Shown here in pieces: positions 23,859-40,918 of a DNA stretch of 64,000 nt. The translations under genes were made by a program, and so were the position numbers. Under the pieces are notes generated by a model. That model was not told the DNA's origin, did not search any database, and saw only the letters and a program-made list of their open reading frames with translations. The first letter of the stretch is position 1. Each line of letters starts with the position of its first letter. Origin of the DNA: Winogradskyella sp. PC-19 (GTDB lineage Bacteria > Bacteroidota > Bacteroidia > Flavobacteriales > Flavobacteriaceae); contig NZ_CP019332.1 of NCBI RefSeq assembly GCF_002163855.1, positions 847,145-911,144 of the forward strand. The letters run 5' to 3'.

Positions 23859-24027
23859 TTGTGTTGTTTATAAAACGTCAACAACTCTATTGTATATCAT
23901 ATTGATTTCTAGATTTTAAAATCCTAACTTAGCTTAACTTCTGATATAAATCATTAAAAACGGATTCATATCATGATATTTAAGCGTAACTCCAAAATCT
24001 CGATAAAAACAAAGTTAAATAAAAGTG

Positions 24028-24035
24028 TATCTTTG
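24028..24035 (+). promoter_or_regulatory. -7 promoter element of the DEAD-box helicase gene
   Basis: TATCTTTG, identical to the SRP RNA -7 element, followed by GCACGC. It predicts transcription from about 24042 and a leader of about 130 nt. No -33 TTG lies at 19 bp. Confidence 0.65.
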
Positions 24036-24041
24036 CACGCT

Positions 24042-24171
24042 GAAAGTCAGAGAACTGATTTTCTGATAATTCCTCAGAGTGAGGATGTGTTACAAGGAGA
24101 ATTTAGAATAAGTATGTCGATTCGCTTCTTATGTAACACTACATAATACAATCGAATACTTATACAAAAGA
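24042..24171 (+). promoter_or_regulatory. Structured 5' leader of the DEAD-box helicase mRNA (candidate RNA switch)
   Basis: The leader holds four strong pairings. Hairpin 1 is AGTCAG/CTGATT around AGAA (24045-24060). Hairpin 2 is TCCTCA/TGAGGA around GAG (24071-24085). Helix A pairs GTGTTACA (24087-24094) with TGTAACAC (24132-24139). Helix B pairs ATAAGTATGTCGATT (24108-24122) with AATCGAATACTTAT (24150-24163), 14 bp with one bulged G. A and B interleave, so they form a pseudoknot or are alternatives. Helix B ends 8 nt before the helicase ATG. A 10-codon ORF (24114-24146) lies inside. No known riboswitch class is recognised; function is inferred from geometry. Confidence 0.6.
24114..24146 (+). 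CDS. Possible upstream ORF of 10 codons in the helicase leader
   Basis: ATG at 24114 to TAA at 24144-24146 encodes MSIRFLCNTT. It spans the left arm of helix B and the right arm of helix A, so its translation would open both helices. An AAGGAG stretch lies 14 nt upstream of the ATG, which is a long spacing, and this phylum rarely relies on such sites. Whether it is translated is unknown. Confidence 0.25.
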   Translation: MSIRFLCNTT

Positions 24172-26046
24172 ATGAGCACATTCCAAGAACTCGGTCTTGA
24201 CCAAGACCTATTGAATGCTATTAACGACATGGGTTTTGTAACTCCAAGTGAAGTTCAGGCACAAGCAATACCATTATTATTAAAAGAAGAACGCGATTTA
24301 GTTGCATTGGCACAAACCGGTACTGGTAAAACAGCGGCATTTGGTTTTCCTATGCTTCAAAAAATCGATGTAGAGAGTCGTACAACCCAAGGTCTAATCT
24401 TATCACCAACACGTGAGCTTTGTTTACAAATCACAAACGAGCTTAAGCAATACGGTAAATATTGTAAAGGGCTTAATGTAACTGCTATTTATGGTGGTGC
24501 GAGTATTACAGACCAAGCACGCCAAGTAAAGCGTGGCGCACAAATTATTGTGGCAACTCCTGGTCGTATGAAAGATATGATTAGCCGTAAACTCGTAGAT
24601 ATTTCTAAAATACAATACAGTGTTTTAGATGAAGCCGATGAGATGCTTAACATGGGTTTTTACGAAGATATTACAGATATCTTATCGCACACACCAGACG
24701 ATAAAAGCACGTGGTTATTTTCTGCAACAATGCCTAAAGAAGTGGCTACGATTGCAAAAAAATTCATGTACGATCCGTTAGAAATTACTGTTGGTAATAA
24801 AAACGAAAGTACAAGTAACGTATCGCATGAGTATTATTTAGTAAATGCTCGTGACCGTTACAACGCACTAAAACGTTTGGCAGACGCTAATCCAGATATA
24901 TTTTCTGTTATTTTCTGTCGTACAAAACGCGACACACAAAAAGTAGCCGAAAACTTAATCGAAAGTGGTTATAGCGCTGGTGCATTGCATGGAGATTTAA
25001 GCCAGAATCAACGTGATTTGGTGATGAAATCTTTCCGTAACAAACAAATACAAATGTTGGTAGCAACAGATGTTGCCGCCCGTGGTATCGATGTAGACAA
25101 CATTACACACGTTATCAATTACCAATTACCAGACGAAATCGAAACCTATACACACCGTTCTGGTAGAACTGGTCGTGCAGGAAACACTGGAGTTTCTATG
25201 GTCATTGTTTCAAAAAGTGAATTACGTAAGATAAAAAGTATCGAGCGTATCATTAAGAAACAGTTTGAAAAGAAAGATATCCCTAGCGGAACAGAAATTA
25301 CCGAAGTACAGTTAATGTCTTTGGCTAATAAAATACATAATACCGAAACTGGAGACGAGATTGACAAGTACCTTGAAAGTATAAATGAATTATTTGTAGA
25401 TACGTCTAAGGAAGATTTGATTAAGAAATTTTTCTCAGTAGAATTTAACCGTTTCCATAACTACTACCAAAAATCGAAGGACTTAGGTGTTGTAGATTCT
25501 CGTGGTGGTGAAGGTAGAGATTACGGTAAATCATCAAACGACACACGTTACTTTATCAATGTTGGACGTAAAGATGGTTTTGACTGGATGAAATTGAAAG
25601 ATTTCTTAAAAGAAAAACTAGAATTAGGTCGTGATGATGTCTTTAAGGTAGACGTAAAAGAAAGCTTTTCGTTCTTTAATACTGAAAAAGAAACTCAAGA
25701 AAAAGTATTGGCTTTCTTCACAGATTTTAAACACGAAGGTCGTTTTGTAAACGTTGAAGTGTCAGAAAACAGAGGCGGCGGACGTGGACGCAATCGCAGT
25801 GGCGGTGGAAGACGAAGAGATGGCGGTAGTGGCGGCGGACGTAGACGTTCAGATGATAGACGTAGCGAAAGACGCTCTAGCGATAGAGGTGACAGAAAAC
25901 CAAGACGTTCAGATGATTCTGCTAACAGAGGCGACAGACGTAGCAGACGTTCTAACGATGATAAACCAAGAGGAAGACGCTCAGAAAACTCTAACTCTAG
26001 CTATTCTGGTTCGGACAGACCAAGACGTTCTCGAAGAAGAGATTAA
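24172..26046 (+). CDS. DEAD-box RNA helicase with a DbpA-type RNA-binding domain and RG-rich tail
   Basis: A 624-residue ATP-dependent RNA helicase. All core motifs are present in order: a Q motif near 20-26, AQTGTGKT (I), PTREL (Ia), DEAD (II, about 154), SAT (III), ARGID (V) and HRSGRTGR (VI). A C-terminal domain around residues 455-535 (YFINVGRKDGFDWMKLKDFL to RFVNVEVSEN) resembles the DbpA RNA-binding domain. The last 85 residues are low-complexity Gly, Arg, Ser and Asp repeats that typically add non-specific RNA affinity. Probable roles are ribosome assembly, RNA decay or cold adaptation. The long structured leader suggests post-transcriptional control, possibly by the helicase itself. 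Confidence 0.95.
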   Translation: MSTFQELGLDQDLLNAINDMGFVTPSEVQAQAIPLLLKEERDLVALAQTGTGKTAAFGFPMLQKIDVESRTTQGLILSPTRELCLQITNELKQYGKYCKGLNVTAIYGGASITDQARQVKRGAQIIVATPGRMKDMISRKLVDISKIQYSVLDEADEMLNMGFYEDITDILSHTPDDKSTWLFSATMPKEVATIAKKFMYDPLEITVGNKNESTSNVSHEYYLVNARDRYNALKRLADANPDIFSVIFCRTKRDTQKVAENLIESGYSAGALHGDLSQNQRDLVMKSFRNKQIQMLVATDVAARGIDVDNITHVINYQLPDEIETYTHRSGRTGRAGNTGVSMVIVSKSELRKIKSIERIIKKQFEKKDIPSGTEITEVQLMSLANKIHNTETGDEIDKYLESINELFVDTSKEDLIKKFFSVEFNRFHNYYQKSKDLGVVDSRGGEGRDYGKSSNDTRYFINVGRKDGFDWMKLKDFLKEKLELGRDDVFKVDVKESFSFFNTEKETQEKVLAFFTDFKHEGRFVNVEVSENRGGGRGRNRSGGGRRRDGGSGGGRRRSDDRRSERRSSDRGDRKPRRSDDSANRGDRRSRRSNDDKPRGRRSENSNSSYSGSDRPRRSRRRD

Positions 26047-26057
26047 TAATATAATTA

Positions 26058-26087
26058 AAAGCTCAGAATTTTATTCTGGGCTTTTTT
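26058..26087 (+). terminator. Intrinsic terminator after the helicase gene
   Basis: AGCTCAGAA-TTTTA-TTCTGGGCT with one G-U pair, followed by T6. Very similar to the terminator after fahA. Confidence 0.85.
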
Positions 26088-40610: not shown

Positions 40611-40687
40611 TTAAAATTTAATTACTCGAGAACATACAGCGAACTATACGTAAACTTTTATCCCGAAAGTTGTACTTCTATGTTGAA

Positions 40688-40872
40688 ATTGGCAGGTCTC
40701 CTGACTTGCGTCTTGTTGTTTGTCTTCCCATTTCTAAAATTTGAAACAGTGACTTTGAAGGTAACAACAAGCTTTATAGCTTACAGTTGCGGGAACAGTT
40801 CTGGATTTTAACCAGATTCCCTTTTAATCGAAACATAAATAGTTTATGAATCGAACCAGATTTCGGTGCGAA
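40688..40872 (-). promoter_or_regulatory. Cobalamin (AdoCbl) riboswitch
   Basis: On the minus strand the leader of btuB carries the B12 box AAGTCAGGAGACCTGCC (40707-40691) with the preceding conserved GGGAAGAC and GTCACTG elements, plus the 5' segment GCACCGAAATCTGGTT. This is a full-length aptamer by eye. It ends about 78 bp before the btuB ATG, so binding of adenosylcobalamin should shut off expression by termination or by masking the start. Confidence 0.93.
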
Positions 40873-40918
40873 ATTAAACAATTGCTTTAATGTGTTCTAT
40901 TAAAAGTCTAAATAATAT

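Follow-up and report, generated by a model that had tools for sequence, protein, structure and literature searches.

A conserved leader RNA with two interleaved helices upstream of a DEAD-box helicase gene in Flavobacteriaceae

Introduction

What does a leader RNA with two long interleaved helices do in front of the gene for an RNA helicase? The question is raised by the window studied here, a 64,000-nucleotide (nt) stretch of Winogradskyella sp. PC-19 (NZ_CP019332.1, positions 847,145 to 911,144 of the forward strand), in which the messenger RNA (mRNA) of a DEAD-box RNA helicase begins with two helices whose strands alternate in the order A-B-A'-B'. The original prediction, made from the letters of the sequence alone, saw in this leader an expression switch of no recognised class. 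Comparison with relatives points to a conserved, putatively cis-regulatory RNA, a new family with two types, I (that of the window) and II, both lacking in Rfam 15. This kind of regulation is already known, and autogenous leaders are well known for ribosomal and cold-shock proteins; it is the RNA family that is new. Its structure is conserved, it stands before the helicase gene in every locus examined, nested models give it a defined order of folding, and in those models access to the start site is lost in the complete leader. The account to which we lean, with slightly more belief than doubt, is that the leader RNA acts in cis to control translation of its own helicase through two competing folds, with the helicase speeding the switch to the off state.

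The leader in the window

The elements of the leader and the gene that follows it, each with the evidence on which it rests, are:

24028-24035, + strand: promoter -7 element TATCTTTG, read from the sequence
24042-24063, + strand: P0, 5' hairpin GAAAGTCAG-AGAA-CTGATTTTC, from the minimum free energy (MFE) fold
24071-24085, + strand: P1 hairpin, TCCTC-AGAGT-GAGGA, from pairing and changes on both sides in type I
24087-24094, + strand: P2 5' strand (helix A of the original prediction), GTGTTACA, from covariation in types I and II
24096-24099, + strand: P3 5' strand, GGAG (GAAG or GAG in relatives), from covariation in types I and II
24108-24122, + strand: P4 5' strand (helix B of the original prediction), ATAAGTATGTCGATT, inside the P3 loop, from permutation and neighbour-swap tests
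24125-24128, + strand: P3 3' strand, CTTC, evidence as for its 5' strand
24129-24135, + strand: P5 5' strand, TTATGTA, overlapping the P2 3' strand, from the MFE fold and a permutation test
24132-24139, + strand: P2 3' strand, TGTAACAC, evidence as for its 5' strand
24140-24146, + strand: P5 3' strand, TACATAA, evidence as for its 5' strand
24150-24163, + strand: P4 3' strand, AATCGAATACTTAT, 8 nt before the helicase ATG, evidence as for its 5' strand and from start-site accessibility
24172-26046, + strand: DEAD-box RNA helicase with a C-terminal DbpA RNA-binding domain and an Arg/Gly-rich tail, from Pfam

Helices A and B, here P2 and P4, are present in the sequence at exactly the coordinates claimed for them: P2 is formed by 8 base pairs (bp) of GTGTTACA with TGTAACAC, and P4 by 14 bp of ATAAGTATGTCGATT with AATCGAATACTTAT with one bulged G. 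P4 adjoins the start codon as described, ending 8 nt before the helicase ATG at 24172. Two further helices had been overlooked: P3 (GGAG/CTTC), which is nested within P2, and P5 (TTATGTA/TACATAA), which is nested within P4 and takes part of the P2 3' strand. Both of the predicted local hairpins exist, the first of them with a shift in its limits, since the MFE fold places it at 24042-24063 and not at 24045-24060. The claim that the leader is structured is borne out by its folding energy, as the MFE of 24035-24200 is -41.6 kcal/mol versus -29.95 (standard deviation, sd, 3.73) for dinucleotide shuffles, none of 200 being as low (z -3.1).

Transcription is expected to start upstream of all of these helices, as had been proposed. 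The motif at 24028-24035, TATCTTTG, is presumably a Bacteroidota promoter element of the TAnnTTTG type, and of 169 distinct leaders 166 have the same motif no more than 120 nt upstream of P1 (92/95 of type I and 74/74 of type II), versus 137 of 3380 shuffled upstream stretches. P0 lies between this motif and P1. Its letters vary among relatives, and many leaders are too short to fit it; the promoter and P1 are at least 22 nt apart in 51/169 leaders, and in 37 of these 51 with room for P0 at most 5 of 100 mononucleotide shuffles of the promoter-P1 stretch are as stable.

The leader also contains a short upstream open reading frame (uORF) at 24114-24146, which the original prediction had noted as overlapping both long helices. 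It is real in the window, with 10 sense codons, and 42/95 type I leaders carry an ATGTC open reading frame of at most 12 codons that ends before the helicase ATG. Of the other nine type I leaders with ATGTC, five have a longer frame, three a frame overlapping the helicase start out of phase, and one a frame that stays open and runs in frame into the helicase. ATGTC is absent from 44/95 type I and 72/74 type II leaders, and the uORF was rejected as a conserved element. Where its letters are conserved, this is sufficiently explained by the fact that the same letters form the P4, P3 and P2 strands. Control by translation of this reading frame is, in consequence, an explanation to which we give hardly any credence.

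Conservation of base pairing

If the helices matter, their pairing should be kept while their letters change, and compensatory change in both interleaved helices was the test that the original prediction had set for itself. Two alignments were made, A3 from 98 type I matches (95 distinct rows counted) and A4 from 79 type II matches (74 distinct). Left out of A3 were L164 and L177 (with contigs as long as those of L007 and L035, respectively), L262/L263 (which carry an insert), L081-L087, L240-L246 and 19 of the 29 loci L088-L116. In alignments fitted to the structure, and against shuffles that ignore relatedness, 95.9% of cells are paired in type I with 13/17 pairs changed on both sides, and 97.5% in type II with 7/12 pairs changed on both sides; none of 500 shuffles reaches any of these measures in type I, and none of 500 does so in type II. 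P1 of type I is paired in 98.3% of cells, with 3/5 pairs changed on both sides. For P2 the values are 95.2% and 7/7 pairs in type I and 99.1% and 2/6 pairs in type II; for P3 they are 94.3% and 3/5 pairs in type I and 98.6% and 2/3 pairs in type II. Permuting the P2/P3 arms among leaders matched the true pairing in 0/2000 trials in type I and in 265/2000 in type II, the latter because the arms hardly vary there.

P4 crosses P2/P3 and was tested without aligning, as the duplex energy of the P3 loop with the stretch downstream. Type I leaders pair with their own partner at -11.20, versus -8.14 (sd 0.23) with the stretches of other leaders, and type II leaders at -9.48 versus -7.33 (sd 0.22); in neither type did any of 2000 permutations do as well. 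When partners were swapped between closest relatives, the own pairing of P4 in type I won in 32 of 46 cases, lost in 10 and tied in 4 (p=0.0009). P5 was permuted only in leaders with at least 4 nt between P2 and P4 (72/95 of type I, 70/74 of type II); in type I and type II alike, all 2000 permutations fall short of its own pairing, the mean energies being small (-1.77 and -0.32). Both interleaved helices are, then, kept by compensatory change among relatives, and the compensatory base changes expected of a structured cis-regulatory leader RNA are seen in P1, P2 and P3 by alignment and in P4 free of alignment (for type I only, by neighbour swap as well).

Distribution and gene context

Eighty loci encoding relatives of the helicase, out of a larger number of candidates, were collected and their leaders read by eye. 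A homologous leader is present in 30 of the 80, 14 of type I and 16 of type II, the latter in the Maribacter, Arenibacter and Allomuricauda group. From promoter to ATG, type I leaders measure 96-159 nt and those of type II 102-120 nt. Among the 50 loci without the element, the promoter motif is present in 47, and in 29 of these it sits 13-30 nt from the ATG. On a tree of the helicases the leader labels are strongly clustered, with 5 changes in total versus a shuffled mean of 28.4, some branches being long and uncertain; supported branches force at least one change for type I and two for type II.

Covariance models were built from 15 type I leaders (R1), 16 type II leaders (R2) and 98 type I leaders (R3). 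Over 81 sources, R1 recovered its own 15/15 and otherwise gave one weak match (E 0.95), and R2 recovered its own 16 and weakly matched four type I leaders, the window included, at the leader itself (E 0.045-0.99). The latter matches suggest, without proving, that types I and II have a common origin. In 397 Flavobacteriaceae genomes sampled from a larger group, R1 was found in 166 and R2 in 63, with no genome matched by both. With one type or the other in 229 of the 397, this would be a widely conserved leader RNA of a DEAD-box helicase in bacteria, and one whose two-fold architecture is defined. R3 was searched over 395 genomes drawn from the whole order, family included, and matched 14, of which 12 were R1-positive genomes of the family draw, one (G212) belonged to that draw and was unmatched by R1, and one (G553) was new. 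Type I thus looks confined to Flavobacteriaceae or nearly so; type II was searched within the family only.

The genes downstream were examined by tblastn with the window helicase in 183 loci. Among R2 genomes these loci represent all 63, and among R1 genomes 116 of the 166. The helicase lies downstream in 183/183 loci (66/66 and 117/117), and no gene context other than the helicase was seen among them. Between the match end and the helicase start there are -10 to +11 nt in 182 of the 183; in the remaining locus, L262, whose leader is split by an insert, the figure is 170 nt. This constant position before one gene is what a structured cis-regulatory leader RNA would display. Each matched genome has a single R1 or R2 match, with the exception of G051; there the P3 loop is interrupted by an insert of roughly 150 nt, so that R1 matches twice at a looser threshold. 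This is the leader L262 (1501-1763), in which the P1-P4 strands are kept on either side of the insert; a smaller insert is present in the corresponding loop of L256, and the loop thus tolerates insertions.

The same data bear on whether the leader might be a metabolite riboswitch, in which P1-P3 would serve as the aptamer and P4 as the expression platform. Such a device would suit two features of the leader, the conserved letters in the loops around P1 and P4 and the helix that sequesters the start codon. A single gene context in all 183 loci, one copy per genome apart from G051, and the service of orthologs in other lineages by unrelated leaders do not suit it, and we regard a riboswitch as very improbable.

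The claim that the leader belongs to no known class has held up, in that no Rfam 15 family (of 4227) scores above its gathering score in the leader, either when the whole window was searched at gathering score or when the leader was searched at permissive settings as well. Two low-scoring candidates were set aside: whalefall-1 (RF01762) reaches 19 bits over 24027-24086 versus a gathering score of 37, in an alignment that spans the promoter and has several mismatched pairs, and was taken as a chance match; a mir-1302 match is below its gathering score. For genome annotators types I and II are therefore a new family, lacking in Rfam 15. In the literature searched, no description of a helicase leader in Bacteroidota was recognised; most subscription papers were beyond its reach, and absence from print is not shown by it. 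A transcriptome of Flavobacterium psychrophilum offers a table of 64 structured 5' regions, and its main text makes no mention of helicases (PMC9723704).

Two folds and access to the start site

Can P2 and P4 form in the same molecule? If P2 is required to have at least 5 bp, and P4 at least 6 bp without a break, only 0-1 nt separates the two in 10/95 type I leaders. Such a linker cannot cross P2/P3, so the two helices should exclude each other in these 10 leaders. In addition, P5 pairs bases that P2 needs. Both facts speak against a static pseudoknot, in which P2/P3 and P4 would coexist and be bound by the helicase, through its DbpA domain, or by a ribosomal protein, blocking or trapping the ribosome. 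The leader pseudoknots of Escherichia coli rpsO, which encodes S15, and of phage T4 gene 32 exert autogenous control by an interleaved fold at or before the start codon; in the case of S15 the pseudoknot is stabilised by the protein and blocks or traps the ribosome. These systems differ from the window family in having one product-bound pseudoknot, whereas P2 and P4 appear exclusive in at least some members of the family. The interleaved A-B-A'-B' order itself favours the static alternative, as do the DbpA RNA-binding domain of the helicase, the near-invariance of P1 in type I, which suggests specific recognition, and the length of the commonest P2-P4 linker in both types, which is 10 nt (27/95 in type I, 47/74 in type II); this is the linker that P5 uses. 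A 23S ribosomal RNA (rRNA) search in G001, bearing on the idea of rRNA mimicry, gave no match. On balance the static pseudoknot is unlikely.

Competition between two folds, which we prefer, is what the computed order of folding describes. In prefixes cut at the end of P2, the pair probability of P2 exceeds 0.5 in 92/95 type I and 73/74 type II leaders. In complete leaders this is the case in only 6/95 and 22/74, and P4 exceeds 0.5 in 88/95 and 52/74; exclusion between P2/P3 and P4 is built into these figures, because the folding programs forbid pseudoknots. When nested folds were forced at 37 C, the P4 fold was lower in energy in 85/95 type I and 56/74 type II leaders, with the forced P4 pairs chosen as the best duplex, a choice that favours the P4 fold. 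Averaged over positions -20 to -1, the probability of being unpaired is 0.33 for complete leaders of type I and type II alike; it is 0.72 (type I) and 0.59 (type II) when P1-P3 is enforced, and 0.60 in short-leader orthologs (24 of 25 kept). In Flavobacterium johnsoniae, according to a ribosome profiling study, structure at -20 to +20 tunes initiation, in a group that lacks Shine-Dalgarno sequences (PMC6847099).

That two folds differ in energy might also suggest that temperature alone shifts the balance between them, so that the leader would be a direct thermosensor. The cspA mRNA of E. coli sets a precedent: it is described as having a cis-acting thermosensor, and the conformer that forms at 37 C is the less accessible one (PMC9947658). 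In the leaders studied here, cooling from 37 to 10 C widens the median gap in favour of the P4 fold, from 5.1 to 7.7 kcal/mol in type I and from 2.7 to 3.2 in type II. At equilibrium, cooling would by these computed energies turn off a helicase that is needed in the cold, which makes pure equilibrium thermosensing the less likely and, to our mind, distinctly improbable. A kinetic version of the thermosensor would be compatible with these energies.

A model for helicase autoregulation

Taken together, the leader is likely a two-state translational switch, in which, according to the folding models, P1-P3 would be the on state and P4 the off state. During transcription P1, P2 and P3 would be the earliest helices to form, with the bases ahead of the AUG still accessible. 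As the last 22 nt or so before the AUG emerge, the more stable P4 fold, together with P5, would become available and cover about -22 to -9. Passage from the first fold to the second would require that P2/P3 be opened, a step that the helicase may speed. With ample helicase the leader would reach the off fold and synthesis would stop, a negative feedback; where unwinding is limiting, for example in the cold, the early fold would persist and more helicase would be made. Of the three triggers put forward by the original prediction, temperature, the ribosome and the helicase, the helicase is favoured because the element precedes the same helicase in all 183 loci examined and because of the nature of the protein. 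What we infer is that it is the trigger, acting on its leader and so limiting its own synthesis, that control is exerted on translation, and that in every member the one fold shuts out the other.

Several observations weigh against this model, in addition to the limits of the folding calculations given above. With a linker of about 10 nt, P2/P3 and P4 might form together. A general refolding score separates leaders poorly from shuffles, a score of at least 5 being reached by 79/95 type I leaders versus 66% of their shuffles and by 71/74 type II leaders versus 66% (mean scores 12.2 versus 7.2 and 9.6 versus 6.9), and among 30 leaders drawn from each type a stricter conflict-helix score gives p<=0.05 in no more than 10 (type I) and 11 (type II). 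The neighbour swap of P4 is not significant in type II (21 better, 10 worse and 5 ties of 36; p=0.07), and neighbour swaps of P2/P3 are uninformative, since close relatives have nearly the same arms (type I: 17 better, 18 worse; type II: 16 better, 9 worse). The element is absent from the Flavobacterium, Salegentibacter and Capnocytophaga loci that were read, and is therefore dispensable for the gene family. The four inner pairs of P1 (CCTC/GAGG) keep one type in 92-95 of 95 type I rows. As structure alone would permit drift, this near-invariance suggests that the pairs are read specifically by something; they may be a protein site, which the two-fold model leaves unexplained.

The proposed control has partial counterparts elsewhere. 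CspA of E. coli acts on its own mRNA and stimulates translation of the less accessible conformer (PMC9947658). As described there, cspA resembles the window leader in that an RNA-remodelling protein acts on its own mRNA, the conformers of which differ in ribosome access; it differs in that the window leader is proposed to respond with the opposite sign, and to an ATP-dependent helicase. The DEAD-box helicase CrhR of Synechocystis is reported to be autoregulated in a temperature-linked manner, partly after transcription (PMC3485376). It is alike in being a DEAD-box helicase that regulates its own expression and differs in phylum and helicase, and a conserved leader fold is not described in the abstract of that study. 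The ribosomal protein leaders of Flavobacteria are likewise lineage-limited structured leaders before genes for RNA-binding proteins, and differ in that the main text describing them never uses the word "helicase" (PMC7247131).

Leaders of orthologs in other lineages

Orthologs of the helicase in other flavobacterial lineages have leaders that are unrelated in sequence to types I and II, some of them with a similar layout. In a set from one such lineage, termed type III (L265, L270-L282), the last 72 nt or so before the ATG mostly contain AAGGCTT/AAGCCTT-like and ATTTATC/GATAAAT-like helices in the A-B-A'-B' order; these leaders are shorter, and the first helix is missing in L270 and altered in some members. 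In leaders of a class IV (L266, L267, L268, L283, L285), one strand within the last 62 nt or so has two possible partners, one upstream and the other 0-8 nt before the ATG, as in L285, where GATTTACAGG/TCTGTAAATC stands against TCTGTAAAT/ATTTACAGA-ATG.

The type III, class IV and other Bacteroidota sets were chosen after the leaders had been read, with lengths fixed at 72 nt (III) and 60-62 nt (IV), and on that footing the conflict-helix score (versus dinucleotide shuffles) gives p<=0.05 in 2/10 type III leaders, which are not statistically supported, in 5/7 class IV leaders (L285, L267, L268, L283 and L266, p 0.005-0.02; L284 and L269 not) and in 2/8 leaders of other Bacteroidota, versus 2/25 short-leader controls. 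By the general refolding score none of these sets stands out, a score of at least 5 being reached by 4/12 type III leaders (versus 46% of shuffles), 3/7 of class IV (38%), 2/10 of other Bacteroidota (31%) and 11/26 short-leader controls (44%).

Class IV is in line with a more general reading, in which the leader would be a gauge of the RNA-unwinding capacity of the cell, the rate of conversion from P1-P3 to P4/P5 reporting helicase activity. If unwinding is sensed and not sequence, the layout, an early helix A and a later helix B that closes on the start codon, would be expected to outlast replacement of the sequence. The support from class IV is suggestive only, because the leaders were picked by eye and L285, L267 and L268 look related to one another, and we hold this reading tentatively, as somewhat unlikely. 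If the helicase does drive the conversion, a leader of about 100 nt and a single protein would suffice for a direct test of how cells measure their RNA-folding capacity.

Outside the Flavobacteriaceae sets, the helicase leader of Chitinophaga filiformis (L048) has competing stems TCAGTTC/GAGCTGA and GTTCAGG/CCTGAAC ahead of the start codon, with a conflict-helix p=0.01. It may be a separate helicase leader in Chitinophagaceae.

The helicase gene and other features of the window

The assignment of the gene rests on Pfam matches to DEAD (1.3e-48), Helicase_C (9.5e-32) and DbpA (3.3e-17). Among the 25 of 40 NCBIfam families listed for the protein, the CshA and DbpA models score highest and none reaches its cut-off, the best being CshA with 478 bits versus 646. 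A search of phage sequences with the helicase returned 68 records, no one of which covers 80% of the protein or reaches 60% identity. The gene looks monocistronic, because it is directly followed by a terminator-like hairpin with a T6 run, noted by eye:

26060-26087, + strand: terminator-like hairpin AGCTCAGAAT/ATTCTGGGCT, then T6

Elsewhere in the window, and outside the leader region, lie the only two Rfam matches at gathering score:

40674-40875, - strand: cobalamin riboswitch (RF00174), 102.5 bits
13967-14073, - strand: Bacteroidales small SRP RNA (RF04183), 100.6 bits
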